This document shows, in pieces, positions 1 to 52,135 of a stretch of 52,135 nt of DNA. Origin of the DNA: a virus. The translations under genes were made by a program, and so were the position numbers. The notes under the pieces are model-generated. The model saw nothing but the letters and a program-made list of their open reading frames with translations, had not been told where the DNA came from and did not search any database. How positions within the stretch are numbered: position 1 is the stretch's first letter; every line of letters begins with the position of its first letter. The stretch lies in IMG/VR virus record IMGVR_UViG_3300044675_006493, positions 1 through 52,135 of that record. The stretch is one strand, 5' to 3'.

Positions 1-1192
1 TCCTCAGGGTGCCGCTGGCCCTCAGGGGGCAACGGGTCCACAGGGTCCACAGGGGGCACAAGGGCCACAAGGCGCTGTCGGGGCTACTGGACCTACCGGC
101 CCGCAAGGGGCGCAAGGCCCGCAGGGGCCACAGGGGGCCATCGGTCCTCAGGGACCGCAGGGCGACACAGGGGACACGGGTCCTGCTGGCCCTCAGGGTT
201 CGGTCGGTCCGCAGGGCGCTGTCGGCGCTACAGGCGATACGGGACCTCAGGGTGCCGTTGGCCCACAAGGTACAACGGGCGCTCAGGGTGCTGTCGGCCC
301 ACAAGGGTCTACCGGGCCACAGGGTCCGCAGGGTGCGGTTGGTCCTCAGGGCGCTCACGGTGCGACGGGCGACACGGGTGCCGCAGGTCCGCAAGGTCCG
401 CAAGGAGCGCAAGGCCCGCAAGGTGCTATCGGTGCCACGGGCGCTGTCGGTGACACGGGTGCAACTGGACCGCAGGGTGCGACCGGTGCGAATGGTGCGA
501 CTGGTGCTGTAGGGCCTACGGGTGCGACAGGGCCGCAAGGTGCGACTGGTGCCAACGGCGCTACAGGACCGCAGGGTGCTGACGGGTCGTTCATCTCAAC
601 TTGGGAAGGCGAATGGGACTCGGGGACCACCTACTCGGTTGGTGACATTGTTGTTTATAGCGACACGATCACCGGTGTCGGTTTCACGGTCGGGTCGTAC
701 ATCGCGACGGCAGGTTCCACGAATGAGCCTCCGGTCGTGGGCGGCACGGTCAACACCGCTTATTGGGATTACATTGCGGCTGGTGTTCAAGGTCCGACAG
801 GCGATACGGGACCGCAAGGCGACACAGGCCCGCAAGGTCCCACTGGGCCGCAAGGTGCTACCGGTGCGACTGGTGCTGCTGGCGATTGGGCGACGGCTCA
901 GACACTCAATGCTCGGACCGCTGCGTACACGTTGCTTACTGCCGATGCCGGGAAGTTGGTCACGGTTGATTCTGTCAGCAACCTTGACGTTACTGTCAAC
1001 GGATCACTGGACCTGAGCAACGGGCAACGCATTGACATTCTCAGGCTTGGGCTTGGTGAAGTAACTGTTGTTGCGAGCGGTGCAACCGTCAACGGCACGC
1101 CGGGTTTGAAGTTGCGTGCCCGCTACTCTGCTGCAACCCTGCTGTGCGTGGCGGCTGACACCTACGTTTTGCTTGGCGACTTGAAGGCTTGA
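1..1192 (+). CDS. Collagen-like tail fibre protein, C-terminal part (5' end missing)
   Basis: Reading frame 2 is open from the window edge to the TGA at 1190-1192 (396 codons). The first ~195 residues are uninterrupted Gly-X-Y triplets, mostly GPQ, GAT and GDT. A globular insert follows at about nt 590-785: a W..G..Y..GD.V.Y pattern and a trailing YWDYIA resemble small CBM5/12-type carbohydrate-binding modules. A short second collagen stretch (about 790-885) and a ~100-residue C-terminal domain complete it. Such proteins form trimeric triple-helical fibres that reach the host surface. The N-terminal half is very probably the gene at 50920-52135, split by the window ends. Family assignment is firm from the repeat; the receptor-binding role is inferred from the CBM-like insert and from the Gly-rich fibre gene that follows 1 nt later. 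Confidence 0.88.
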
Positions 1193-2387: not shown

Positions 2388-4841
2388 ATGCCTCCTTCCT
2401 TTAAAAACAGGAAATTTGCTGCGCGCTCACTCGCGACACGCGCCATTACCGCCTCTGCTCAAAGGGTCCTTCATCCCAACGGAGGGTTGGCGTATCGACC
2501 TGAAGACCACAAAGTTGTTGAATGGCAGCAACAGGCATGGAACTTTTACGACCTCATCGGAGAACTTCGTTACGGTGCCCGTTACTACGGAAACAGTCTT
2601 TCACAGTTGCGTCTTGAAATCGGTTGGAAGGTAAATTCTGGAACTGCTCCACAGCCCATCGATTTGGACAATCCGCCAGAAGGTTTCAATAGGCAGCAAT
2701 ATGATATCGCTGTAGAAACACTTGATCGTCTTCATTCCTATGACGGATCGGTTGCAGAGATCCTGCGACAATTCGGTGTGAATCTATTTGTGGCGGGCGA
2801 AGGATACTTGGTGGGTCGAATTGACCGCGACACTGGTATGGAGCGATGGGATTTTTATTCGACCGAACAACTTATTTGGTTGAATGGTGGATGGTACCTC
2901 AAAGAAAATCTTCTTTGGCGCACAGATCAACTCATCAAACTTTCTGACGAAGATTATGTAATTCGGATCTGGCAATCACATCCACGCTATTCAGACGAAC
3001 CCGATTCTCCTCTTCGTTCCATCCTTGGGCTGTGCGAAGAACTTCTTCTTTTGTCAGCAAACGTGAGAGCGACGGCGTTGTCTCGCATTCCCGCTGGCAT
3101 TCTTCTTATGCCCGACACGATGCTTGACGCTGGACCTGATTACGAACCAGAAAACCTGAACGACGATTCGAAGAGGGAACAGCAAACACAATCGGCCCTT
3201 GAAGACATTTACCAACATTTCATTACGCCAATTGAGGATCCAAACTCTGCTGCTTCGGTCGCCCCGTTCATTTTGACTGGAGACCCAGAAGACATCGAAC
3301 GGGTTCGTGTCCTTGAATTTGCGCGCGACATGGATGAAATTGCTGCGCAGCAAAGACAAGAGATCATTACTCGTATCGCCCACGGAGTCGATCTTCCCAG
3401 CGAAATCCTTAACGGGATGGGTTCCGTCAACCATTGGACTGCTTGGCAGATTGAAGAATCTTCTTACAAGTCACATATTCGCCCTGCCGCTGTTCTTTTC
3501 TGCGGGGCGATCACTTCTTCTTTGATTTGGCCTGCGATCCAAGTTGGTACTGGCGGCGAAGTCGATCAGCGTCTCGTTGTCACTTTCGATCCCATTGATC
3601 TCATTTCTCATATCGATAGGCGTTTGAACGCTAAGGATGGTCACGCCTCTCTTGTTATTTCTGATGCGACCTACCGCAAGGCTCTTGGGTTCTCAGAAGA
3701 AGACGCTCCCGGGGAATTGGAATACAAGCGTCGGATGGCGTTGCAGCAGGCCGCTCTGTCTCTTACCCCTGTTGCTGCTGGCGAATTGGATTCTGTTACT
3801 GAGGCTTTGGACGAATCGGTTGCCCGTGTTCGTCCCGGTGTCCCAACACCTGAATCGATTACGTCAGATCCCGATCCTCGTGGACGCACTCCTGACGTAG
3901 AACGTGATGTGGAAACGGGTGAGGTTGCAGATGTCGCTCCCTCCGTTCCTGAAATCACTGCGTCGGCCTCTCCTGATAGTACTTCTGGCTTGGGGCGGCG
4001 TTTGGTGGATATCGATCAGCGCTTGATGGATCGTCTGGAAATTCTTGCTACTTCTGCGATGCGACGCGTTATGGAAAAGGCTGGGGCGAAGATTCGTTCT
4101 AAGGCTTCTAAAGATTCGTCTTTGACTGCTGCCATTAATGACACGAAGAACATTGATGTTGCTTCTGCTTTGGGTGAAAGCATTGTTGCTTCGCTGTTTG
4201 CAGATAACTCTTTGATCACCGAAGAGCAGTTTGATGATTTTGCTGAGCAATACGATCTTTTGACTTCTAGGGCACAGAAACAGGTGCGTCAGATCGCAAA
4301 GGAATACGGTCTTGACCCGTACAACCTGACGGCTTTGGAATTGCAGCAAGAGGTCGAAAGGAACGCAGGCAAAATTGTTTTGGTGGGTCTTCTGGTGGCT
4401 GCTGCGTCAAAGTTGCTTTACAAGCCGAAGGCCTCTTCCGAGCAGATCAACGGATCTTCACTGGGCGAATTTGACGACATTTCTCTCGTTCCTGCGAGAG
4501 TTATTCGCGCAGGTCTTTCTGCTGCTGGAGGAAACATGGGTATTTCTGTTTCCAGTGGCGCTATCGTCGATTTGCAGGACAATCCTCTTGGGTTGTTGGC
4601 AACGGGAGAAACTTCACTGACGTATCTGGGCGAAGCGGGTGTAAATGTCGCAGGTTACCGTTGGGTTTATGGTGAGGATGATCGTAAGGAATTCGAACCG
4701 CACTTAAATCTTGATGGCTACGAGTTTTCTTCGTGGGAAGATCCTCAGTTGACGAATGTTTCAGATTTCCCTGATTCTTCGTTCTATTTCCCCGGCGACC
4801 ATAACGGGTGTCGGTGCCTTATCGAATACTTGTTTGCATAG
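2388..4841 (+). CDS. Portal protein fused to a C-terminal MuF-like domain
   Basis: 817 residues, far longer than a usual portal (450-550). Residues ~1-480 look like an SPP1/HK97-type portal: an N-terminal region with YDLIGELRYGARYYGN, a wing/clip region, and the GVDLPSEILNGMGSVNHWTAWQ segment typical of portals of actinobacterial phages. Residues ~480-570 are a polar linker. Residues ~570-817 are helical and end in PGDHNGCRCLIEYL, the Cys-containing end seen in MuF/SPP1 gp7 head-morphogenesis domains. The portal forms the dodecameric DNA gateway at one capsid vertex, and MuF-type domains are minor head proteins. Oddly, it lies at the end of the fibre block, 5.9 kb from the terminase genes and on the opposite strand from the capsid gene. 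Confidence 0.82.
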   Translation: MPPSFKNRKFAARSLATRAITASAQRVLHPNGGLAYRPEDHKVVEWQQQAWNFYDLIGELRYGARYYGNSLSQLRLEIGWKVNSGTAPQPIDLDNPPEGFNRQQYDIAVETLDRLHSYDGSVAEILRQFGVNLFVAGEGYLVGRIDRDTGMERWDFYSTEQLIWLNGGWYLKENLLWRTDQLIKLSDEDYVIRIWQSHPRYSDEPDSPLRSILGLCEELLLLSANVRATALSRIPAGILLMPDTMLDAGPDYEPENLNDDSKREQQTQSALEDIYQHFITPIEDPNSAASVAPFILTGDPEDIERVRVLEFARDMDEIAAQQRQEIITRIAHGVDLPSEILNGMGSVNHWTAWQIEESSYKSHIRPAAVLFCGAITSSLIWPAIQVGTGGEVDQRLVVTFDPIDLISHIDRRLNAKDGHASLVISDATYRKALGFSEEDAPGELEYKRRMALQQAALSLTPVAAGELDSVTEALDESVARVRPGVPTPESITSDPDPRGRTPDVERDVETGEVADVAPSVPEITASASPDSTSGLGRRLVDIDQRLMDRLEILATSAMRRVMEKAGAKIRSKASKDSSLTAAINDTKNIDVASALGESIVASLFADNSLITEEQFDDFAEQYDLLTSRAQKQVRQIAKEYGLDPYNLTALELQQEVERNAGKIVLVGLLVAAASKLLYKPKASSEQINGSSLGEFDDISLVPARVIRAGLSAAGGNMGISVSSGAIVDLQDNPLGLLATGETSLTYLGEAGVNVAGYRWVYGEDDRKEFEPHLNLDGYEFSSWEDPQLTNVSDFPDSSFYFPGDHNGCRCLIEYLFA

Positions 4842-6290: not shown

Positions 6291-6551
6291 ATGGGCTTCG
6301 TACTTTTTCCTGACATTTTTTTGACTGACTGGGACGTTCCTTGGCTGGTGTTTTATGAGGAATGTGTCGCTTTGGCCAAAGAAGATGAGATGGAGTGGAA
6401 GCAGATTTATCGTGGTTTCAGTCAGAAGCGTGCTGAAGGAATAGCAGCACAGATGAAAAGAAGGGGTTGCTTGTCAGCGACCCACAAGTATAGTGATGGC
6501 ACTTACGGCACTTATGCCGCTTACTGGAGGTTAGAAGATGAAGATTCATGA
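6291..6551 (+). CDS. Hypothetical small protein
   Basis: 86 residues. The ATG at 6291 lies 1 nt after the previous stop and fits the tight operon better than an upstream ATG at 6225. Contains WKQIYRGFSQKRAEGIAAQ and QMKRRGCLSATHKY, similar in layout to the two genes before it. The C-terminus overlaps the ERF gene start by 14 nt. Function unknown. Confidence 0.5.
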   Translation: MGFVLFPDIFLTDWDVPWLVFYEECVALAKEDEMEWKQIYRGFSQKRAEGIAAQMKRRGCLSATHKYSDGTYGTYAAYWRLEDEDS

Positions 6552-7191
6552 AGCACTTGCTCACGTTATGGAAGATGTGCGGGCTGTTGCAAAGAGCGAA
6601 CGTAATTCGCATCAGAACTACAATTTTCGAGGCATTGACGCTGTTGTGAATGCAGTGGGTCCCGCTTTTAGGCGTCACCAGATTGTTGTGATGCCAAAGG
6701 TCCTACACGTCGAAGCCGAGAATGTGTCAGTTGGTCGGAACAACACGCAGATGCGTTCGGTGACTATTACTGTCGAATACACTTTTGTTGGGCCTGAGGG
6801 CGATTCATTGGTGGCCACTAGCGTTGGCGAGTCGATGGATAGCGGCGACAAGGCTGTGCCAAAGGCCATGAGTGTTGCATTGCGCACCTGCCTTCTTCAG
6901 GCACTCTTGCTGCCAACTGATGAACCGGACCCAGACGAGTTTTCGTATGATCGTTCCGCGACGCAGGCAGTAAAGTTTGATGCTGCGGATCGTGGTACTT
7001 GGCCAGATGAGATCAATGTCGCTCAGGCCAAGAAGATCTTCCTTGTGGCTTGTGGCGGGGACAAGAGCGCTGCTGTTACTGCTTGGGAGCAGGCAGAAGT
7101 TGGTGAGGGGCCTTTTGCCCCTGACGAGATGGACGCCATCGTTAAGGTAGCATCGGAGTTTTTCATTACTGGTGAAGGGAGGCCGTTCTGA
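6538..7191 (+). CDS. erf: ERF-family single-strand annealing protein
   Basis: 217 residues. The N-terminal ~130 residues show the ERF-family pattern: MKIHEALAHVMEDV, YNFRGIDAVVNAV, a beta strand with VTVEY-like content, then DSGDKAVPKAMSVALRTCLLQALLLPTDE. The family anneals complementary single strands and promotes recA-independent recombination and replication restart. Residues ~150-217 are variable, as is usual, and may carry partner contacts. It lies mid-operon with 14-nt and 1-nt overlaps to its neighbours. A cognate SSB is encoded far away at 28893-29291. Confidence in the family is high; the precise role is from family knowledge. Confidence 0.88.
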   Translation: MKIHEALAHVMEDVRAVAKSERNSHQNYNFRGIDAVVNAVGPAFRRHQIVVMPKVLHVEAENVSVGRNNTQMRSVTITVEYTFVGPEGDSLVATSVGESMDSGDKAVPKAMSVALRTCLLQALLLPTDEPDPDEFSYDRSATQAVKFDAADRGTWPDEINVAQAKKIFLVACGGDKSAAVTAWEQAEVGEGPFAPDEMDAIVKVASEFFITGEGRPF

Positions 7192-7417: not shown

Positions 7418-8176
7418 ATGAGTGTTCAAGCGATTTCTTGGGTTCTTGAACATTCCAAATCCTCAAATACTGCTCGCTGCGTTCTGATCTCTATTGCCAA
7501 TCACATGGGCGGCGATGGTTCGGGTTGGGTGTATGTGGACAGGATTTGTCGTGAGGCAAACTGTTCTTTGAATTCGTATCATCGTGCAGTGCAGTGGGCT
7601 GTAGAGAACGGCGAACTGGAACGGGTGTCCCATTCTGGTGGCAGTGAACGTGTGCATGTCCGACATCGCCCGAACATGTTTCGGTTTCCGTTTCTTGAAG
7701 AGCGACCTACTCAGATTGGGGGGGAGGGAGGTACTCAGTTTGGGGACCACCCTCCTACCCAAAATGGGGAGGTCAATATAGGAGCCGTCAGTAGAGCCGT
7801 CAGTAGAGCCTCTAATGACGGGGATGTTCGTAAAGTTTTTGTTGCTTGGTGCGAGGCAACTGGTAGAAACGAAAGTCGGGTGAAGTTAACTAAGGAGCGT
7901 TTGGGGAAGATCAAGGCCCGTTTGCAGGAGGGCTACACAGTGGAAGATCTCATTGATGCTGTGAAGGGTGTCACTTTGTCCAGTTTTCATATGGGCGATA
8001 ACGATCAGAAGCAGCGTTACGACGATCTGACTACTGTTCTTCGAACTGGTTCTCAGGTGGAGAAGTTCAGCAGTTTGTGGAGGAACCCTCCGACTTCAGG
8101 GCCTTCTTCTCCTAAGGCTTTTGATGTGATCAGATCTGTCATAGGTGAACAGGAGCAGCAGTATGAACTCTCGTGA
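7418..8176 (+). CDS. Winged-helix replication initiator-like protein with internal iterons
   Basis: 252 residues. The ATG at 7418 is preferred over an in-frame TTG at 7412. Residues 1-92 form a helix-turn-helix_36-like DNA-binding domain (ISWVLEHSKSSNTARCVLISIANH...). Residues ~97-120 are three 8-residue repeats of the form xTQxGxxx, and a linker with SRAVSRAS follows. Residues ~140-230 form a helical C-terminal domain typical of phage O/DnaD-like initiators. The repeats are encoded by DNA iterons (see 7706-7810), as in lambda O where the origin lies inside the gene. The next gene resembles a helicase loader. Likely job: bind iterons and recruit the replicative helicase, which must come from the host because none is encoded here. 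Confidence 0.72.
   Translation: MSVQAISWVLEHSKSSNTARCVLISIANHMGGDGSGWVYVDRICREANCSLNSYHRAVQWAVENGELERVSHSGGSERVHVRHRPNMFRFPFLEERPTQIGGEGGTQFGDHPPTQNGEVNIGAVSRAVSRASNDGDVRKVFVAWCEATGRNESRVKLTKERLGKIKARLQEGYTVEDLIDAVKGVTLSSFHMGDNDQKQRYDDLTTVLRTGSQVEKFSSLWRNPPTSGPSSPKAFDVIRSVIGEQEQQYELS
7706..7810 (+). repeat. Iteron cluster A (origin-like) inside the initiator gene
   Basis: Three imperfect 15-bp palindromes of the form TAC(T/C)CANNNTGGGG(G/A) start at 7708, 7732 and 7756, exactly 24 nt apart. They are followed by GTCAATA and two perfect tandem 12-mers GAGCCGTCAGTA (7782-7793, 7794-7805) plus a partial third. The same arrangement occurs inverted at 40678-40784. Iterons within an initiator gene are the known layout of lambda-type origins; binding by this gene's own product is inference. 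Confidence 0.75.
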
Positions 8177-8576
8177 GGTTGGTGAGATTCTGGGTTACCT
8201 GTCGGCCGCTTGGCCTAAGTACGAATTGTTTCCGGAGACGGTCAAGGTTTGGATCGACCAGTTTTCTGAGACGGATTTTGAGGTTGCTCAGAAGGCGGCG
8301 AGGAAGGTTGTCGCTGAAGACAACTGGTTTCCATCTGTTTCTAGATTTATCGGAATTTGTAAAACTGAGTCTAGAATGTCCGAAAGGCCGCTAGGCTGCG
8401 ATCACTGCGATAACGGTTTCGTTATCTCGGAAAGCGGAGTTGCGAGTTTCTGCGGATTTTGTAGGCAAGCGCCTAGGAGTATCCACAGGCCGCGGGTTCG
8501 TGAACTGCATTCCCCTCAGGGCAACTGGGAGGAATGTTTAGAACAAACCAGAAAGAAACTTAAGGAGACGAAATGA
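8163..8576 (+). CDS. Helicase-loader-like protein with zinc-binding motif
   Basis: 137 residues; the ATG at 8163 has AGGAG 7 nt upstream and overlaps the initiator gene by 14 nt. The N-terminal ~75 residues (EVGEILGYLSAAWPKYELF... FEVAQKAARKVVAEDNWFPSVSRFI) resemble the N-terminal domain of G39P-type loaders/inhibitors of replicative helicases. A CDHCDNG...CGFC zinc-ribbon pattern follows at ~80-105, then a basic tail. Position directly behind the initiator supports a loader role, although an ATPase domain is absent. Confidence 0.6.
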   Translation: MNSREVGEILGYLSAAWPKYELFPETVKVWIDQFSETDFEVAQKAARKVVAEDNWFPSVSRFIGICKTESRMSERPLGCDHCDNGFVISESGVASFCGFCRQAPRSIHRPRVRELHSPQGNWEECLEQTRKKLKETK

Positions 8577-8766: not shown

Positions 8767-9669
8767 ATGCCTCGCATTAACAATCTCTCACCGCTATCCG
8801 TTTACCCGGGTTCCAAACGCAAAGTAGTTGATCTGATTTGGGAACGATTCGGAACTGTTAATCGTTATGTCGAATCTTTCCTAGGCTCAGGTGCAGTTTG
8901 GCTAGGACGGCCCGGAGAAAATCTGAACGGATACGGTGAGATTGTTAATGATCGATCAGGTTTGATTGTTAATGTTTGGCGTTCAATGGTTCAAGATCCA
9001 GAGCAGTTAGCAACGATTGTTGATTGGCCGGGAACAACCAATGATTTGGAAGCAAGGCAAAAGGCTTGTTTTAACGCCGCCGAAGGTTTGTCGCAAAAGT
9101 TGGAAGAAGACCCAACTTATTGCGATGTTCAACTTGCCGCATGGACTGTTTACGGTTTGAGTTGGGCTACGCACGCAAGATCTTTTATGAACGATGGCCA
9201 TTGTCGTGTTGGACGACCTTCTGCTACACCTGCTGGGGCGCACGCGGTTAGCAGGCCACCTATGCACGAATGGTTTGCAGAAATTAAAGAGCGCACCAAA
9301 AAGGCCGTCATTCTTTGCGACGACTGGAAAAAGTCTGTGACGCCAGCGTTGTTACACAGCGGCAAGAACGACATTTGCGCTGTTTTCCTTGATCCTCCTT
9401 ATGGGGAAGATCGACGCACGAACCTTTATCAGGTTGATTCAAAAACTGTTTACATGGAAGTTCTTGAATGGGCCATCGCAAACGCTGAGAACAACCGCAT
9501 CAGGATTTGTGTGGCAGGTTATGACGGCGAACATAACGTTTTAGAGGAAATGGGTTGGGAAGTTCTTGCTTGGTCTTCTGCCCAAGGCGGAGAAAGTCGC
9601 CACAAGGAACGTTTGTGGTTTTCCCCTTCTTGCATTAATGCCTCGGCAGGAGGCTTGTTTGATGGGTGA
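8767..9669 (+). CDS. DNA adenine-N6 methyltransferase (D12/Dam-like)
   Basis: 300 residues. SAM-binding motif region FLGSGAV at ~38-44, preceded by YPGSKRK at ~13-19; catalytic motif IV DPPY at 209-212 in the context VFLDPPYGED. These mark the D12 class of N6-adenine methylases that act on double-stranded DNA. The target-recognition segment is ~100-180. No restriction endonuclease is encoded beside it, so it is probably an orphan enzyme that protects phage DNA from host restriction or marks replication. The target site cannot be deduced. The stop overlaps the next gene by 8 nt. Confidence 0.85.
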   Translation: MPRINNLSPLSVYPGSKRKVVDLIWERFGTVNRYVESFLGSGAVWLGRPGENLNGYGEIVNDRSGLIVNVWRSMVQDPEQLATIVDWPGTTNDLEARQKACFNAAEGLSQKLEEDPTYCDVQLAAWTVYGLSWATHARSFMNDGHCRVGRPSATPAGAHAVSRPPMHEWFAEIKERTKKAVILCDDWKKSVTPALLHSGKNDICAVFLDPPYGEDRRTNLYQVDSKTVYMEVLEWAIANAENNRIRICVAGYDGEHNVLEEMGWEVLAWSSAQGGESRHKERLWFSPSCINASAGGLFDG

Positions 9670-10138
9670 AGAGGAACAACTTCCTTATCAGGGGCCTCAA
9701 AAAGGTGCCTGTGAGGGCAACACTGCAAAATGTAGTCGTGACGACTGTCCCCTATTTGGCACTTTGCTAAAACCCAATAAAGACGGCAAGCGCCGCATTC
9801 GTGGATGTGGAGATGCTGTTGCTAGGGGAAAGCGCGCTAGGACTAAAGGCAAACGGGCGCAGCGTAAGGTCGCCAACAAGTTGGGCATTCCTTCCGGAAT
9901 CGACGGGGGGAACGAAGAGACTTGGCGTTCTTCTTTGAGGATCGAAGTTAAGGAAGGCAAGCAGGTTCAGGCTGCTGTTACTGCCTTTCGTAGGACAAGA
10001 GATCAATCAGAATTGGCGCGCCCTATAGGCGACAACAGACCTTTCATGGGTGTTGTCGTTCATGAAGGTCTTGAAGTGTGCTTGATTGCTTTGGATGATT
10101 TGCATACGGTCGCTGCACACGTTTTGTTGCAAGATTGA
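9662..10138 (+). CDS. Putative PDDEXK-type nuclease / resolvase-like protein
   Basis: 158 residues; the ATG at 9662 overlaps the methylase stop. The N-terminal ~45 residues hold five cysteines (CEG, KCSRDDC, RGC), a likely zinc knuckle. The core GKRAQRKVANKLGI...EETWRSSLRIEVKEGKQVQAAVTAF has an acidic residue before a strand with E-x-K, as in phage Holliday-junction resolvases and other PDDEXK nucleases. A resolvase would fit the recombination block and precede terminase packaging. The assignment is moderate because the catalytic Asp is not certain. Confidence 0.5.
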   Translation: MGEEEQLPYQGPQKGACEGNTAKCSRDDCPLFGTLLKPNKDGKRRIRGCGDAVARGKRARTKGKRAQRKVANKLGIPSGIDGGNEETWRSSLRIEVKEGKQVQAAVTAFRRTRDQSELARPIGDNRPFMGVVVHEGLEVCLIALDDLHTVAAHVLLQD

Positions 10139-10158
10139 TTCTGGGGGAATGTGGGGAG

Positions 10159-10500
10159 ATGCATGAATGGATGGAAAGGGCGGCGTGCAAAAATTCAGAT
10201 CCCGACGATTGGTTCCCTTTGGAATATTCCATGCGTCACGAAAACAACATGACGCGAATTTGTATTGAGCAATGCGAAGTTCAGGAACAATGCCTTGAAT
10301 ACGCATTGGTGTCCAAAGAAACGCTCGGGATTTGGGGTGGCTTCAGTCCTGCTGAACTTAAAGGCATCAGGACAAAACGGTACAGCAGATGTTGTAAATG
10401 TGGTCAGAGATGGCCGAAGGCACGCTTGACGTATGAAACAACGTGTAGACCTTGCAAGATCAAAGAAATGGACGAAAGGGACGCGAGGAAAAGAAAATGA
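10159..10500 (+). CDS. WhiB-family iron-sulfur regulator with C-terminal zinc ribbon
   Basis: 113 residues from ATG 10159; a TTG at 10135 is an alternative start. WhiB signatures: WMERAAC, then CIEQCEVQEQC, and the GIWGG turn that contacts sigma-A region 4. The usual C-x2-C spacing is C-x3-C here (TGT ATT GAG CAA TGC), which is unusual for 4Fe-4S binding. A second cysteine set follows (CCKCGQRW...CRPCK), a possible zinc ribbon not found in standard WhiB. Phage WhiB proteins are known to alter host WhiB-controlled genes. Location in front of the terminase genes hints at a switch to late transcription. Confidence 0.82.
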   Translation: MHEWMERAACKNSDPDDWFPLEYSMRHENNMTRICIEQCEVQEQCLEYALVSKETLGIWGGFSPAELKGIRTKRYSRCCKCGQRWPKARLTYETTCRPCKIKEMDERDARKRK

Positions 10501-35082: not shown

Positions 35083-36255
35083 TCACAACACACGCAAATT
35101 GTCCCAACCGTCACCATCAATGGTGTAAGTAAGAATCCCAGAACGCGACTTTCCGCCTCCCCTGTTCTCCCACCAAACACTCCCACCATCCATCGCTGGA
35201 CACTGGAAATGGACACGGGGACCGTGGTCCACAACGGAAAGATGATGATAATGCGCAGTAGTCAAATACTCTGCATCACCAATAGGTGACTGCATGAACG
35301 CATGATCCTTCCACCAATTCTGCTGCTTTTGCTGAGGAGTGGAACCGCGACCTGCGATATGCCCGTGAGCGAATCCGCACAGTTTGTCATAGATATCAAA
35401 AACGACATGAAGGCGATCATCGGGGATGTGGAAATTCACATGCCCAAACGCTTCTGGATTAGTCGCAAGGGTTTCAGCAACCATTTCAAACACTGCAACA
35501 TCGTCGTTGTCGCTCGGCGTGGTGAACGATTTGCCGTCCTTGCGGTTTTCCCCATGATTTCCGGCAACACCAGAGACAACCAGTGGGATACCCAAACGAG
35601 AAAGACCAATAACCAGATCACGAAGAAGCCGTCGAACGACACGAACTTGTTGCCTTCGGTCCAATTCGACCGTAAAAGTTTGTTGGGCATAATGACCGTC
35701 GCAGTTTTCTACTAAGTCTCCCATGCCAACAATATAAATCTGTGCAGGTTTAGTTTTGCGTGCGTGTTCAATAATTCTTTGCCAAGAATCCAAGACGCGC
35801 AGAACAGTTCCTTCTGTCCCATCTCCATCAGCCTTTCCTATCTGGAGATCTGACGGGCAGATAATAAGCGCCGAATCGGAAAGGGGCTTTACAGATTTGA
35901 CCGGTTTGTAACGGCTAATGCCAGATAGCAACTCATCGACATCCACTCGTTGCGAAAATCTTCGTTTAAGACGAGCCTTATATTGATAACGCCATTCGCC
36001 ATCTCCGCCTTCCCAGCGATTGACGTACAAGGTGCCCGGTTCAATTTCCCATTGATCGGGATCCATGTGCCAACCGTTAAGAAGTTCGACCTCATCAGCA
36101 TCCCTAGAAAAAACTTCTGAGATCGCTGAAGCCTCATTGTCGGACTGGACGACATGAGGTTCCCAACCCGTTGGATAACCAGATCGTTTGCGTCGATTGC
36201 CTTCTGGATGTTGAACGCCCTCGTTGGGGGGCAAATACTCGTTAAGAGACGACAC
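35083..36255 (-). CDS. Calcineurin-like metallophosphoesterase
   Basis: 390 residues from GTG 36255. Metal-site motifs in order: CPSDLQIG (D-x-Q/H-like first site) at ~130, GMGDLVEN (GD) at ~175, AGNHGE (GNH) at ~230, FAHGHI near ~290 and TAHYHH near ~335. The N-terminal ~120 residues are family-specific (WHMDPDQWEIEPGTLYVNRW). This subtype is widespread in phages of Actinobacteria and is often called a phosphoesterase or DNA repair-like nuclease; the substrate is unknown. It overlaps the previous gene by 14 nt. Confidence 0.85.
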   Translation of the reverse strand: MSSLNEYLPPNEGVQHPEGNRRKRSGYPTGWEPHVVQSDNEASAISEVFSRDADEVELLNGWHMDPDQWEIEPGTLYVNRWEGGDGEWRYQYKARLKRRFSQRVDVDELLSGISRYKPVKSVKPLSDSALIICPSDLQIGKADGDGTEGTVLRVLDSWQRIIEHARKTKPAQIYIVGMGDLVENCDGHYAQQTFTVELDRRQQVRVVRRLLRDLVIGLSRLGIPLVVSGVAGNHGENRKDGKSFTTPSDNDDVAVFEMVAETLATNPEAFGHVNFHIPDDRLHVVFDIYDKLCGFAHGHIAGRGSTPQQKQQNWWKDHAFMQSPIGDAEYLTTAHYHHLSVVDHGPRVHFQCPAMDGGSVWWENRGGGKSRSGILTYTIDGDGWDNLRVL

Positions 36256-37197: not shown

Positions 37198-38943
37198 CTA
37201 CTTGTTGATTCGTGCGCCCAACTTCAAAACGGCTTCGTCGGAGAAGCCAAGAATGTCAACAATCGCCTCTAATTTAGCGATTCTTGCCTTCAAAAGATCG
37301 TTTGTGACATTCGACTCACCACAGCCGCAATCGTCGTCAATTACGCCAGCAGCAACCAAAGCGACCTGATTGCCTGAAGCAGTAACGCCCGCTTGCACCC
37401 CGCGAGGAACCGGGAAACCGGGAACATTTACAGCCAAAGCAGCAACAAGTTCAAGATTGCCCTTCAGGCTTCGCCAGTCACCAGAAAGTGAAGCACCCCT
37501 GAATTCGCGAACCTGTTCGGCGTTAATGCCCGGGCGAAGCGCGCCAGCAACCCAAATTCCGTAATCGTCTTCACCACAAACAACGTCTGCAACAGCAAAA
37601 CCGGTGTGTTCGTAGTGGGCGATAGCAGCAGCAGCCGAAACGCCCGGACGAGTCGAAGCATGTCCAGTACTCATCGTAATCGACCCAACCGCAACATTTT
37701 CACCGTTTTCGCAAACAATGTAACCGGTGCGGAAATACGAATAATCGGTTGCGCTACGAGGAGGCATCAAACAAATGTCGCTACGACCCGTATGGCAGGT
37801 GTTCCACAGCGCAAGATGCCCATAAACATACCCTTGATCTGAAATGAACAGAGGGGTAGGCGCATCAAGATCAGGGTTTTCAAACCAATCTGAAGGAGGA
37901 GCAGTGGGGGCTGACGAAGCAATCAAAGCGTGATACGTCGCGTCGTCAAGGTTTTCGGGGCCACCCCAAATATTCGCGGAGGCCACCTGAACCACTTTGG
38001 CTGATTCAATCGCTTGAAACGGGGCGAGTGTCACGGCCCCAATCTTTCCTTCGACGAGATGCATAATCTCTTCGTTGTCGTATTCGATAACTTCGTCACC
38101 GACCTCCATGCTGACACCAGTCAAGAAGCCATCACGAACCTCTGCGGCGACCTGACGACCAAAGTCCGTGTTCAGATTGAATGTCGCTGACGCAACAAGA
38201 ATCGGGCCGGTGCCATCACCTGAAGAAGCATCGATCGAATCGACAGTAACGCCGTCCAGCGACATGACACGCAAGAAGTTATCGATACGGCCTGCACGCT
38301 GATTGGGGTCATGATTGACCGTCAACGAAAGAGGCGGGTTACGCCAAGACAACGATCCTAGATCGGCAACACGCCCATCTGAAGTGACTTCGCCTTCAGT
38401 GGCAACAACAATAACGGCGCGAGTAGGAAGATCAAAATCGGTGACAACCATAACGTCTTCGTTGTCGTCCTCTTCGTCCTCTTCGTCTTCAACCCCCGGC
38501 ACGATCTGAGGATCAGACATTTCCTCGTCGTCCTCGTCGTCCTTAGGGCCTTTGTAACCCAGTTCGTTCTCGGCACGCATGGAAACAATTGTAGCCGAAG
38601 CCTCACCCTCGCGCTCCAACCTAGCCGCGGTTCGTTCCGCCCAACGCATTGCGCGTTCAGAAACGGGTTTTGTTACGCCGCCACCCCACAAAAGGTGAGC
38701 GACCTGACCCGGTGACGGATAATCCTTGTCGCCCCGTTGAGGCGCTGTATCCAAATCAACCATGTGACGGGCGAACCATGCAGCCATACGCTTAGGTTTG
38801 TTGTCAGGAAGGTCGCCGTCTTCTACGGCTTGACGGGCCTCACGCACCGTTTGGGGCATCATGCCGTCGCCTGATTGACCTGCCTCATGGTAGGCAAGGC
38901 CACGACGAAAGTTGTCACGCATCCATTCAGGAACCCGGGGCAT
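37198..38943 (-). CDS. Prohead (capsid maturation) protease
   Basis: 581 residues. N-terminal ~130 residues: MPRVPEWMRDNFRRGLAYHEAGQSGDG, a PAAR-unlike helical domain seen in actinophage proteases; an acidic stretch DDEDDEE follows. Protease core at ~165-310: TRAVIVVATEGEVTSDGRV, SLTVNHDPNQRAGRID with the conserved His, then GFLTGVSMEVGD with the catalytic Ser, and VTLAPFQAIESAKV. Catalytic type is the HK97-like Ser/His protease, which removes the capsid scaffold domain. The C-terminal ~250 residues (GYVYGHLALWNTCHTG and beyond) are an extension. It lies two kb from the capsid gene with accessory genes in between. Confidence 0.82.
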   Translation of the reverse strand: MPRVPEWMRDNFRRGLAYHEAGQSGDGMMPQTVREARQAVEDGDLPDNKPKRMAAWFARHMVDLDTAPQRGDKDYPSPGQVAHLLWGGGVTKPVSERAMRWAERTAARLEREGEASATIVSMRAENELGYKGPKDDEDDEEMSDPQIVPGVEDEEDEEDDNEDVMVVTDFDLPTRAVIVVATEGEVTSDGRVADLGSLSWRNPPLSLTVNHDPNQRAGRIDNFLRVMSLDGVTVDSIDASSGDGTGPILVASATFNLNTDFGRQVAAEVRDGFLTGVSMEVGDEVIEYDNEEIMHLVEGKIGAVTLAPFQAIESAKVVQVASANIWGGPENLDDATYHALIASSAPTAPPSDWFENPDLDAPTPLFISDQGYVYGHLALWNTCHTGRSDICLMPPRSATDYSYFRTGYIVCENGENVAVGSITMSTGHASTRPGVSAAAAIAHYEHTGFAVADVVCGEDDYGIWVAGALRPGINAEQVREFRGASLSGDWRSLKGNLELVAALAVNVPGFPVPRGVQAGVTASGNQVALVAAGVIDDDCGCGESNVTNDLLKARIAKLEAIVDILGFSDEAVLKLGARINK

Positions 38944-39267: not shown

Positions 39268-40329
39268 TCAATTTTCTGATGTGGCTTGCTGCGCCAAGAT
39301 GCGAAAAGCGTGGGCGGCTTGTTGTGGAACTACCCCATTACCCAAAAGTTTTAACTGTGCAGTTCTAGAATCAACAATGTCGGTTACCCAACCTTCGGGC
39401 AGCCCCATCATCCACTCAACAAACGAAGCGTTCAGTCTTCCGGAGGCATCAACGGCATCTGGAGCGCATCGCCCAACCACGAACTCCCATCGGGCAATCG
39501 CTGGTCCGTACTGTCCAAATCGGTCATGACCATCACTACAGCGTTTAAAGGCAGGGTGTTTCGTTTCATCTGCGCAGGACCGCCCGTGTTGGACGCGTCC
39601 TGACAGGTAGGAGTCGGCAAAAGATGGGGAATATCCCATAAGTTCCTGCCAAAAGCATTCGCCCCCACATCCGGTGTCGCCCCATGTTTGCTTGCTTGCG
39701 CTGTTGGGGTCGGCATGAGACGCATCGCTTCGATTTCCAAACTGCGTCCGTGACCGTTCCCGTTCCCGTGTTTCGCTTTCATTTCTGATGTCCAAGCGTC
39801 CCACTGTTCCACAGTTTTGCGGGCACCCATGTCCACCACTGTCGGTGTAGGCAAGACAGAACCAGCGAAGTCTGTTATGAGGCGCTCCGACTTCTGCCGC
39901 TGGTAAATGTGTCCATTCCGCAGAGAACCCGTTTTCGGCCAAAGCAGAAACAACTCTGGAAAAAGCATGTCCACCGTTAGCGGTACAAATGCCTGAGACG
40001 TTTTCGAGGAGGAGGAATTTGGCTCCAGCCTCGCGACCAATTCTGCAAACATCGTCAATCAACCAGCGTTCGTCTTCCATCCCGAGCCGTTTACCGGCCT
40101 GAGACACCGGTTGACATGGGAAACCTGCTGTTACCACATCCACCGAAGGTGGATTCGAAATTTTTGTTAAATCACCTAAACCGACCGATGTCTTGAACCG
40201 TGTGGACATGACATGGTTTGCGTGGTTGTCGGTGTCTGAAAACCATGCTAGTTCGGTTTGTGTGCCGATGTGTTGCAAAGCGAGTTCTAACCCGCCGTAG
40301 CCTGCGCACAATGCACCAATTTTGATCAT
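39268..40329 (-). CDS. DNA (cytosine-5) methyltransferase
   Basis: 353 residues. Motif I GALCAGYGGLE (5-15), motif IV GFPCQPVS (69-76) with catalytic Cys72, motif VI ENV (109-111), motif VIII GAPHNRLRWF (148-157), and motif X LLGNGVVPQQA near 330. The region ~165-300 is the variable target-recognition domain with repeated AYTDS/HADPNS/FADSYLS pieces. An orphan C5 methylase with no restriction partner, presumably for self-protection. Its first base overlaps the next upstream gene (ATGA). Confidence 0.93.
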   Translation of the reverse strand: MIKIGALCAGYGGLELALQHIGTQTELAWFSDTDNHANHVMSTRFKTSVGLGDLTKISNPPSVDVVTAGFPCQPVSQAGKRLGMEDERWLIDDVCRIGREAGAKFLLLENVSGICTANGGHAFSRVVSALAENGFSAEWTHLPAAEVGAPHNRLRWFCLAYTDSGGHGCPQNCGTVGRLDIRNESETRERERSRTQFGNRSDASHADPNSASKQTWGDTGCGGECFWQELMGYSPSFADSYLSGRVQHGRSCADETKHPAFKRCSDGHDRFGQYGPAIARWEFVVGRCAPDAVDASGRLNASFVEWMMGLPEGWVTDIVDSRTAQLKLLGNGVVPQQAAHAFRILAQQATSEN

Positions 40330-40637
40330 GAGGTTGTTGTTAGCAGCACTTCGAACTTGATGGGTTCGTTATCAAAACGGTCCTGAACCCAAACGTCGTC
40401 ATAGCCTTCTTCAACCCATTCCATCGCCAAATTTAAAGCCTCTGACGCCGACAACAAACAAAGGTTTACTTCTCCGCCACCAACCCAAACAGACCAGTTT
40501 TCGTCCTTGCTATGCGAAAACCAATCCTCAACAAACGTGTTTACGCCCAACTTTGCAACCTCCAAAAACAAAAACAACAACACCAACACACTACCAACCC
40601 AAACCCCAAACAACAACCCCACCCACCCAGCCAACAA
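40326..40637 (-). CDS. Membrane-anchored hypothetical protein
   Basis: 103 residues if TTG 40637 is used; no ATG or GTG gives a better start and the N-terminus is uncertain. One strong membrane span (~8-27, LLFGVWVGSVLVLLFLFLE). The rest is acidic, with SASEALNLAMEWVEEGYDDVWVQDRFDNEPIKFEV, a helix-strand pattern seen in small phage proteins. First gene of the minus-strand late unit, directly beside the origin-like region. Confidence 0.5.
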   Translation of the reverse strand: MLAGWVGLLFGVWVGSVLVLLFLFLEVAKLGVNTFVEDWFSHSKDENWSVWVGGGEVNLCLLSASEALNLAMEWVEEGYDDVWVQDRFDNEPIKFEVLLTTTS

Positions 40638-40652
40638 CCATGGATAGAACCA
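40635..40652. repeat. 18-bp repeat CAACCATGGATAGAACCA, copy 1
   Basis: Perfectly repeated at 40863-40880; the first 13 bases recur at 48475-48487. The core CTATCC-ATGGATAG-like symmetry suggests an operator. Copies 1 and 2 flank the iteron cluster. Confidence 0.5.
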
Positions 40653-40654
40653 GC

Positions 40655-40786
40655 GAAACCGACATATAAATAATAATTACTTACGGCTCTACTTACGGCT
40701 CTTTATTGACCCCCCCAAACTGGGGAGGAGGGAGGTACCCAAAATGGGGAGGTCACAACCAACCTGACCTACCCAAAATGAGTACC
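40655..40786 (-). other. Origin-like region: iteron cluster B next to AT-rich DNA
   Basis: Read on the minus strand: three imperfect palindromes (around 40784-40770, 40750-40736 and 40726-40712), then GTCAATA, then two tandem 12-mers GAGCCGTAAGTA (40701-40678), then an AT-only stretch ending in ATATG at 40679-40663. The plus-strand 20-mer TACCCAAAATGGGGAGGTCA at 40736-40755 is identical to 7756-7775. Iterons beside an easily melted tract are what an origin of replication needs. The same order occurs in cluster A inside the initiator gene. Confidence 0.68.
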
Positions 40787-40862: not shown

Positions 40863-40880
40863 CAACCATGGATAGAACCA
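40863..40880. repeat. 18-bp repeat CAACCATGGATAGAACCA, copy 2
   Basis: Identical to 40635-40652 and located 228 nt away on the other side of the origin-like iterons. Between them and up to 41121 I find no credible gene; the stretch 40881-41100 is G-run-rich with a TAGAAT box at 41010-41015 lacking a clear -35. Confidence 0.5.
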
Positions 40881-41149: not shown

Positions 41150-41258
41150 GGTCTCTGTCAGGGGCTAGCCACGATGGCGCCGCTGGCCTGAGATCCTTGA
41201 AAACCGAGCATGTCGTCTAGTGGGGGCCATGGCCGCACCTACCTACAGAGGAGCAACC

Positions 41259-41582
41259 ATGTCCATTTCCATTACCACTGTCCCGATGTCCATCATGACC
41301 GAGCGGGCCGCGTCATCGTCTTTCGATTTCGCGGCGGTCCTAGCGGCGGCCCTTGCGGCCGCGGCGGATTCCCAAGCCATCACTGTGAACACTGATGACG
41401 GCGAGGGTTGGGTCACGAGCACGGCCAACGGCCATGTCAGGGGGCTACAGGAGCGCCACGGTCCGGCATTCCTGACGGCGCAAGGCTTGACCGATCAATA
41501 CGTGGTCAAGGCAGGCGTGACGGGTCAGGGCATGCCTGACGGCCGCAAAGCGGTCAAGGTGGCCCTTGTCCCCAAGCCATAG
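41259..41582 (+). CDS. Hypothetical GC-rich accessory protein
   Basis: 107 residues; AGAGGAG 5 nt before ATG 41259 decides the start over ATG 41220/41229. Starts Ser/Ile/Thr-rich (MSISITTVPMSIM), then an Ala-rich stretch (FAAVLAAALAAAADSQ), then DDGEGWVTSTANGHVRGLQERHGPAFLTAQG. Codons are markedly GC-rich compared with the rest of the phage, suggesting recent transfer. Good promoter and Shine-Dalgarno point to strong early expression. No family recognised. Confidence 0.65.
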   Translation: MSISITTVPMSIMTERAASSSFDFAAVLAAALAAAADSQAITVNTDDGEGWVTSTANGHVRGLQERHGPAFLTAQGLTDQYVVKAGVTGQGMPDGRKAVKVALVPKP

Positions 41583-41767
41583 CACTAGCGGAGAATCTAG
41601 AACCTAGAACCTAGTCCCGCGGTCGTGGCCCCCACTAGGCGACATGCTCGACGGCGCCACGCTGCCATCGGGTCCCCGACAGGGGACGCGGTGACGGTAC
41701 GGCGCGGACCGCTACGGCCGACGGCCGTCAGGCGGGTACCGCGTGCCGCCCAGGTGCCAGAACATAT

Positions 41768-42524: not shown

Positions 42525-42573
42525 TACCCTTTTTGCGCGGACTTTAACGGGGTTTTTGCGGGGCTTTTTCGGA

Positions 42574-42635
42574 GACCCCCCCTAATGTTTTTTCGGACCC
42601 CCGGTACCCCCCCCTACCCTTTCGGGAAGCGAACT
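42574..42635 (+). repeat. Direct repeat R1', downstream flank
   Basis: Begins with GACCCCCCCTAATGTTTTTT, identical to 47970-47989, and ends with CCCTTTCGGGAAGCGAACT, closely similar to the end of R2' at 48031. Together with R1 it frames a gene cassette. The stretch 42445-42793 otherwise holds only terminators. Confidence 0.65.
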
Positions 42636-45759: not shown

Positions 45760-45763
45760 TCCC

Positions 45764-45792
45764 ATCTTACTATGCGAATAGAACCGAATCAA
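45764..45792 (-). promoter_or_regulatory. Promoter A: amidoligase operon
   Basis: Minus strand: TTGATT (45792-45787), 17-nt spacer, TAAGAT (45769-45764). The spacer CGGTTCTATTCGCATAG differs by one base from that of promoter B at 46855-46883, and the homology continues ~25 nt upstream of the -35 box. Typical sigma-70/sigma-A promoter. Confidence 0.82.
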
Positions 45793-45818
45793 TACCTTGT
45801 AAATACTTTTTTATTCCG

Positions 45819-46797: not shown

Positions 46798-46854
46798 TTC
46801 CGCTCCTTTTTGTTACGACCCGCTGGCCGTCGCCCCCTTTGGGGCCGAGACCCC

Positions 46855-46883
46855 ATTCTACTATGCGAATACAACCGAATCAA
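46855..46883 (-). promoter_or_regulatory. Promoter B: accessory minus-strand operon
   Basis: Minus strand: TTGATT (46883-46878), 17-nt spacer CGGTTGTATTCGCATAG, TAGAAT (46860-46855). Nearly identical to promoter A for ~50 nt. The leader carries a GCCCC/GGGGC hairpin and a strong Shine-Dalgarno. Confidence 0.85.
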
Positions 46884-47504
46884 TACCTTTTAGATACTTT
46901 TTTATTCCGCTGCCGCTGCCCGCTTTTCGTCGCGCTAACGGAAAACGGGCAACGGACCGATAGGGTCGATATCGTCCGAAATGCGCCGAATCACGACAAA
47001 AAACAGGCTCCGATGAGGTTGTTTTGTTCGTTTGGTGCCGATAACCTCCCCTTAGATAGCGAGAACCTTGACAATCCGCCAACAACGACACCCGCGATAA
47101 GGCCAGCGCGTCAGCGCGATTGCCCGCGATCCGCACACCGCAAAAGCGGTTTCGGAAACGGAAAACGGCTCGACCTCTCGCGGAATGTCGGGTTTTAGTC
47201 GGGCGCGCGGCTCGAACTCATAGTGCTCGGCCAAGCCCGCCTGAGGCGGGAGGCGGAAGGGCGCGGGCGCTCCAATGGGCTGGAAGTTTCTTGGGTCCCG
47301 CCGAGTTGAAGCCAAAATTTTTTTGAAATTTTTTTGATTTTTTTTTGCGGTTGGAAATATTTTTGCTGATGAGAATATTTTTGTTGGATTTTGGTTGTTG
47401 TGGCTATAACATGTTCTTTGCTGCTACAAGCGTTTGATGCGAGCAGAAGCAAAGATCAAATGTTGGCCATACTAAAAGCATTGGCACAGATAAAGGAGTC
47501 AAGC
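46884..47504. other. Divergent intergenic region with repeat R2
   Basis: About 620 nt without a convincing gene. It holds the upstream part of promoter B, a GC-rich stretch, a perfect hairpin CCCGCC-TGA-GGCGGG (47236-47250), direct repeat R2 (47243-47340, with GCTCCAATGGGC), T-runs to 47346, and a possible TTGTTG...TATAAC promoter (about 47382-47410) for the plus-strand gene at 47505. It separates leftward and rightward transcription. Confidence 0.6.
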
Positions 47505-47951: not shown

Positions 47952-47969
47952 TTGAAAAACATTTTTGCC

Positions 47970-48031
47970 GACCCCCCCTAATGTTTTTTTGAGATTTTTA
48001 GACCCCCCCCACCCCTTTGGGGAAACGAACT
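47970..48031 (+). repeat. Direct repeat R2', downstream flank and leader of the AIG2-like gene
   Basis: GACCCCCCCTAATGTTTTTT (47970-47989) is identical to 42574-42593; the end ACCCCTTTGGGGAAACGAACT matches R1' closely and forms a CCCC-TTT-GGGG hairpin. It ends 12 nt before the AIG2-like gene. Confidence 0.65.
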
Positions 48032-50923: not shown

Positions 50924-52135
50924 GCAGCGAACAAACAACTGTTGTTGTTGATTCTGGTGCTGTCACAACTGTTGAGGTTGTAGACGAGCAGGTCACAATC
51001 GTTTCGATTGAGGATCGTGCTGTCACCATTATTGGTACTGGCGAGATTGGTCCTGCTGGCCCGCAAGGTGCGACAGGGCCGCAGGGTGTAACAGGGCCGC
51101 AGGGGGCTGCTGGGCCTACGGGTGCGACAGGTGTTCAAGGTCCTACAGGGCCGCAGGGTTCCACCGGTCCTCAGGGTCAGATCGGTCCCCATGGCCCGAC
51201 TGGTCCGACCGGCCCCATCGGGCCGCAGGGCGCTACGGGCGCTATCGGGGCGACGGGCGCTGTTGGCCCAACTGGGGCTACGGGTGTTCAGGGGGCCACG
51301 GGTGCTGTTGGCGCTACCGGAGCGGTTGGTCCTACGGGTGCGACCGGGGCGGTTGGTGCGACAGGACCGCAAGGTGCTGTGGGTGCGACGGGGGCGACCG
51401 GTCCGCAGGGCGCTCAGGGGCCGGTAGGCGATACAGGTCCGCAGGGTCAGACAGGACCTCAGGGCGCTATTGGACCGCAGGGTGCGACGGGTGCGGTTGG
51501 TGCGACTGGGGACACCGGCCCGCAAGGTCCGCAAGGTCCGACAGGTTCGCAGGGCGACACGGGGGATACCGGCCCTCAGGGTCCTACCGGTCCGCAGGGT
51601 GTGACAGGTCCTCATGGTGACACGGGGGCGACAGGTCCTCAGGGACCTCAGGGTGCCACAGGTCCGCAGGGTGCGACCGGCTCGCAAGGACCGACCGGCC
51701 CTCAGGGACCTCAGGGGGCAATTGGCCCGCAGGGTGATACGGGTGCGACTGGCGACACCGGCGCGACTGGCGACACCGGACCTACCGGTCCGCAGGGTGT
51801 TATAGGTCCGCAGGGTCCTGTAGGAGCGACTGGTCCGCAGGGCGATACCGGACCGACTGGTCCGCAGGGTTCAGTTGGCGCTACTGGTCCGCAGGGCGAC
51901 ACTGGCCCTCAGGGTTCTACCGGTCCACAAGGGGCCGTTGGCCCGCAAGGGGCGACTGGTGCGACTGGTTCGCAAGGCCCGACTGGCCCGCAGGGGGATA
52001 CAGGCCCAACCGGGCCGCAAGGCGCGATTGGGGCGACCGGTCCGCAAGGCGACACAGGACCGCAGGGTGCTATTGGCCCTCAGGGCGCTACAGGTGCGCA
52101 AGGGCCGCAAGGCGCTACGGGAGCGACGGGTGTTC
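50920..52135 (+). CDS. Collagen-like tail fibre protein, N-terminal part (runs off the window)
   Basis: TTG start at 50920 inside TTGA, overlapping the previous stop. Residues ~1-43 are a non-collagen head ([38 protein letters not shown]). From residue ~44 to the window end (405 codons plus one base) every third residue is Gly ([13 protein letters not shown] style). No stop is met. Content and frame match the C-terminal part at 1-1192, but a direct join of window ends would be out of frame by one base class (1 leftover base + 1 base). Full protein probably about 800 residues or more. Confidence 0.85.

Follow-up and report, generated by a model that had tools for sequence, protein, structure and literature searches.

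In phage SPP1, oriL lies within gene 38 and oriR is non-coding, G38P binds both of them, the gene for the G39P loader is located next to gene 38, and each origin has an AT-rich element (PMC6316719, PMC3485210). Near-perfect inverted repeats are the targets of phage lambda O, which binds them as a dimer, whereas plasmid iterons bind monomers, a feature that is important for how these iterons are regulated (PMC5043065). Plasmids that carry ectopic lambda origins block the replication of lambda (PMC4488673), and a phage with two sites of its own must therefore tolerate or use the second one. Here, we analyzed a viral DNA stretch of 52,135 nucleotides (IMG/VR record IMGVR_UViG_3300044675_006493; hereafter the window) carrying two copies of a module composed of palindromic iterons, a GTCAATA element, and two tandem 12-mers. 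Site A (7708-7805, plus strand) is inside the gene for an O-like initiator, and site B (40664-40785) is intergenic, inverted relative to site A, and located about 33 kb from it.

The window contains terminase, portal, tail tape-measure, major head, Erf, exonuclease, and WhiB-like genes; because of the WhiB-like gene, the host is probably an actinobacterium. Two separate ORFs (2388-4841 and 37198-38943) matched portal-type PHROG families (phrog_776, phrog_859). Both ends of the window (1-1100 and 51100-52135) lie in a region of collagen-like G-X-Y repeats, and the genome maps circularly, since a contig of a relative, G001, runs across the two ends. A tRNA search of the whole window and an Rfam search of 40-43 kb gave no match, and no plasmid maintenance genes were recognized among the ORFs scanned, which were a subset of all ORFs. 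The preliminary description had proposed GC skew over the circularized genome as a check on the origin. The skew followed the coding strand and the third-position skew had no consistent sign, so that GC skew gives no origin signal here.

The initiator gene (7418-8176, plus strand; the most likely start is the ATG at 7418) encodes 252 amino acids comprising an N-terminal winged-helix domain, a linker, and a C-terminal domain of the phage replication-initiation type. The N-terminus matched phrog_8540 (E=2.6e-10) and phrog_391 (E=3.6e-6), and the C-terminus matched phrog_16167 (E=2.7e-16), a replication-initiation family. In an AlphaFold2 model, residues 95-132, which correspond exactly to nucleotides 7700-7813 (plus strand) around site A, had a pLDDT below 50 and stood between two more confident domains, and this linker is thus predicted to be disordered. 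A Foldseek search with the model returned weak winged-helix chains among its matches, none of them significant alone. In two distant initiators (L160 and L167, both 9515-10312), the linkers end in DPSVEPSENH or a similar sequence, and the site A 12-mers read in another frame as EPSV repeats, so that linkers of initiators may commonly carry a DNA element of this kind.

The end of the initiator gene is overlapped by a gene for a G39P-family helicase loader (8163-8576, plus strand), identified through PF11417 (Inhibitor_G39P; 29.8-31 bits against a cut-off of 22). A tblastn search with this G39P-like protein gave no phage-record match and there was no relevant solved chain; its structure model was poor (pLDDT 54), and a fold search with that model yielded nothing usable. 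Just upstream of the initiator gene lies the gene for an Erf-type single-strand annealing protein (6538-7191, plus strand; PF04404, E=5e-21), and a phage exonuclease that is a possible partner of Erf is encoded at 35083-36255 on the minus strand (phrog_284, E=3.7e-57). A DnaB-type helicase (PF03796) was not found in the window or in the related genomes G001 and G008, with the control search positive in 14 of 14 genomes.

The duplication claimed in the preliminary description, with palindromes, GTCAATA, and tandem 12-mers at both sites, was borne out. Site A consists of three iterons, TACTCAGATTGGGGG (7708-7722), TACTCAGTTTGGGGA (7732-7746), and TACCCAAAATGGGGA (7756-7770), spaced by 24 and 24 nt and followed by GTCAATA (7772-7778), of which CAATA is invariant in an alignment, and by two identical 12-mers, GAGCCGTCAGTA (7782-7793 and 7794-7805), all on the plus strand. 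The iterons are imperfect palindromes of the form CCCAAxTTGGG, with a 24-nt spacing at the in-gene sites. On the minus strand, site B reads as a degenerate outer iteron (40771-40785), a middle iteron (40737-40750), an iteron adjoining GTCAATA (40712-40726), GTCAATA itself (40704-40710), and two copies of GAGCCGTAAGTA (40701-40690 and 40689-40678). Its iteron spacing is 34 and 24 nt, and the 24-nt spacing described earlier thus holds for all of site A and for the inner pair of site B, while the outer iteron of site B is 34 nt from its neighbor. The exact 20-mer said to be common to both sites, TACCCAAAATGGGGAGGTCA, was found at 7756-7775 and 40736-40755, on the plus strand in both, and includes the third iteron of site A and the middle iteron of site B.

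Two further features had been ascribed to site B, and both were present. The 12-mers adjoin an AT-only run, ATATAAATAATAATTA (40664-40679, assigned to no strand), which resembles a DNA unwinding element (DUE); nowhere else in the window does an AT-only run reach 13 nt, and the flanks of site A have no comparable stretch. Transcription diverges around the site, with a minus-strand ORF at 40326-40637 and a plus-strand gene starting from the ATG at 41259, preceded by GGAG. An exact direct repeat, CCATGGATAGAACC (40638-40651 and 40866-40879, 228 bp apart), flanks site B, and GGTTCTAT, its reverse, also occurs within a dispersed repeat at 45.8 kb, a short motif that is not above chance. A 32-bp inverted repeat (41205-41236 and 41619-41650, 91%) surrounds the plus-strand gene to the right of site B.

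The match between the coding site A and the non-coding site B was 83% over 70 bp (E=7e-15). When 1000 random 106-bp stretches of the window were scored, values as high came only from stretches holding site B and from one other repeat pair (45.76/46.85 kb). Five iteron matches were seen against 0.53 expected, a number reached in none of 100 shuffles. Another 25 genomes that encode a related initiator domain were searched, and none of them had a second copy at E<1e-3 (best 0.002, versus 3.7e-14 in the window), a weak base rate since most of these genomes share only one domain with the window initiator and several of the contigs may be partial. The other repeat pair is a 58-bp dispersed repeat (45761-45818 and 46852-46909, 91% identical) located close to where minus-strand ORFs begin, which may be a shared promoter or operator. 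The window also contains a 70-bp dispersed repeat (42566-42635 and 47962-48031, 77% identical).

Three near-identical contigs carried site A, and one of them carried both sites. In the more distant contigs G001 and G002, the initiator is 54% identical to that of the window and the same composite module lies inside its gene, where three palindromes spaced by 24 nt are accompanied by two tandem 12-mers (AAGCCGTAAGTA) of the type seen at site B. Third-position identity between the window and G001/G002 initiator genes reached 0.65 within the module, compared with 0.44 across the two flanking domains (Fisher p=0.02), whereas amino-acid identity in the module (0.59) was no higher than that in the N-terminal domain (0.66). 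The PF11417 loader scored above the gathering threshold in G001 as well as in the window. Since the G001 and G002 contigs stop short of the counterpart of site B (the equivalent of 36-47 kb is missing), the combination of A and B is observed in the window and one near-identical contig only. No prophage relatives were found in a scan of genome contigs. Looser pattern scans gave matches only in phages with this initiator, plus chance hits. Among the hits set aside as chance were those in L153-L155 and one in L103, where the 12-mer is repeated within the coding sequence of an FtsK-like gene that is apparently unrelated.

In a further relative, G008, a single module was found, lying between genes, immediately upstream of the gene for the major head protein and at a gene junction different from that of site B. 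This genome (43,440 bases) is almost complete, about 1.3 kb short inside coding genes when compared with the window, and has a fragmentary cousin, G007. The G008 module has four iterons at 24-nt spacing, the element GGGGGTCAATAAAG, and tandem GAACCGTCCTA repeats; neither a second copy nor an in-gene module was found in G008. Its initiator, with an identity of about 50-55%, lacks most of the linker that encodes the iterons elsewhere. Because this initiator is without the linker and the module is intergenic, the protein seems able to do without the linker peptide and it is apparently as DNA that the module is maintained, and conservation as DNA among the relatives is likewise suggested by the third-position comparison. 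The palindrome core, C(C/T)CA...TGGGG in the other phages, is changed to GCA..TTGCGG in G008, and the predicted recognition helix of the G008 initiator also differs, a single event that fits an initiator and its site evolving together. The G39P domain (PF11417) is absent in G008. At its end, the G008 initiator (L150 3417-4133) has a CxxC...CxxC stretch that resembles the C-terminus of the G39P-like loader in the window, and this may reflect a fusion that followed a deletion. When the tandem-repeat places were compared (7782-7805, 40678-40701, L022:11265-11288, and L148:14163-14185), the 12-mers (11-mers in G008) were identical within each site and different between sites, as if homogenized per site.

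The arrangement resembles that of SPP1 in several respects. The initiators are similar in size (256 amino acids for G38P and 252 for the window protein), one putative site, here a sequence cluster, lies in the initiator gene and a second is non-coding and distant, the next gene overlaps the initiator gene and encodes a G39P-family loader, an AT-rich element is present at the non-coding site, and an annealing protein and an exonuclease are encoded. In contrast, an AT-rich DUE is present at both SPP1 origins and at site B only in the window; SPP1 encodes a DnaB-type helicase, gp40, and none was found in the window; SPP1 repeats are described as direct, whereas the window iterons are lambda-like inverted repeats; and the window's two modules have opposite orientations. 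Since site A has no AT-rich DUE and no phage DnaB-type helicase was found, we did not class the phage as a strict SPP1-type member, SPP1 being compared here by its published description. The inverted-repeat iterons inside the initiator gene and the O-like PHROG families matched by the N-terminus recall lambda O and ori-lambda. In lambda, however, the origin in O is followed by AT-rich DNA and the second replication gene is P, whereas site A has no AT-rich flank and the second gene in the window belongs to the G39P family. Repeated putative initiator sites in two clusters are also reminiscent of iteron plasmids, but plasmid iterons are non-palindromic and monomer-bound, whereas the window repeats are imperfect palindromes in a phage genome.

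We consider it probable that the O-like initiator encoded by this phage binds and assembles at both modules, A and B, in an arrangement like that of SPP1. The N-terminal winged-helix domain would bind the palindromic iterons, probably as a dimer, and the side with GTCAATA and the 12-mers would mark where strands open and where the G39P-type loader and the C-terminal domain of the initiator load the helicase. Because no DnaB was found, this helicase would come from the host. Given the AT-only run next to it, site B would be the likeliest of the two to act as primary origin. Site A would also be bound by the initiator and may act as a second origin or as one that fires late; alternatively, it may serve as a fork barrier at which the synthesis of concatemers by Erf and the exonuclease begins, in a switch from theta to concatemeric replication, the role proposed for the other site of SPP1, or as a titration or autoregulatory site. 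Binding, strand opening, and which site fires are thus what we infer from the sequences. The proposal in the preliminary description that these are origin-type modules, with B the better candidate, agrees with the DNA conservation in the 54% identical relative, the intergenic-only module of G008, the AT-only run at B alone, and the G39P-family neighbor; the plasmid-style handcuffing proposed along with it gains no specific support, and SPP1 oriL/oriR is a closer precedent than plasmids.

It is rather unlikely that only site B is an origin and that site A is either a redundant relic of a lambda-style in-gene origin or an autoregulatory operator, at most damping initiator expression or titrating the initiator. 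This would account for the AT-only run being solely at B and for G008 having an intergenic module and no in-gene one. On the other hand, the in-gene module of G001 is intact with raised third-position conservation, and site A of the window keeps all elements and the 24-nt spacing, which would be expected to be lost in a relic. Less probable still is the converse, that replication truly starts at site A, as in lambda and at SPP1 oriL, and that site B is a regulatory operator or a late fork barrier for a concatemer switch, as SPP1 oriR. The in-gene site is the early origin in both lambda and SPP1, and Erf and the exonuclease are available for recombination-dependent replication; yet no AT-rich DUE lies beside A, and G008 presumably replicates without an in-gene site. 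Handcuffing as in plasmids, in which A and B would pair via bound initiator and limit copy number, is very improbable. Two arrays of one iteron type in opposite orientation would suit such pairing and do not support it specifically, whereas the palindromic, lambda-like iterons suggest dimer binding as by lambda O, unlike the monomer-bound iterons of plasmids (PMC5043065), and the terminase, portal, and tail genes, together with the lack of recognized plasmid maintenance genes among the scanned ORFs, indicate a phage. A chance or selfish dispersed repeat with no replication function is scarcely credible, even though the window has other short dispersed repeats (45761-45818/46852-46909) and the 12-mer recurs in the L103 gene, since the ordered three-element composite occurs with near-constant geometry in three phage groups whose initiators are about 55% identical.

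With A and B taken as two initiator modules in an SPP1-like arrangement, the states observed among the relatives appear to be in-gene, intergenic, and double, the in-gene-only state not being proven. We tentatively suggest, as a reading that could well prove wrong, a lineage of actinobacterial phages whose origin module shifts between the initiator linker and intergenic DNA, where the palindrome and the recognition helix change together and the two-copy state is an intermediate. The two-origin kind itself is already known; what would be new here is the loss or relocation of the in-gene site. In-gene origins occur in several well-studied phages, and the related genomes described here have the module inside the gene, outside it, or both, so that what the in-gene position costs or gains, and what a second site (SPP1 oriR) does, can be tested by comparison and site swaps. 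The SPP1-type layout, described for a Firmicutes phage, would also be extended to a phage that carries a WhiB-like gene and is probably an actinobacterial one. If true, the module-moving reading would catch an origin leaving, or entering, its initiator gene.
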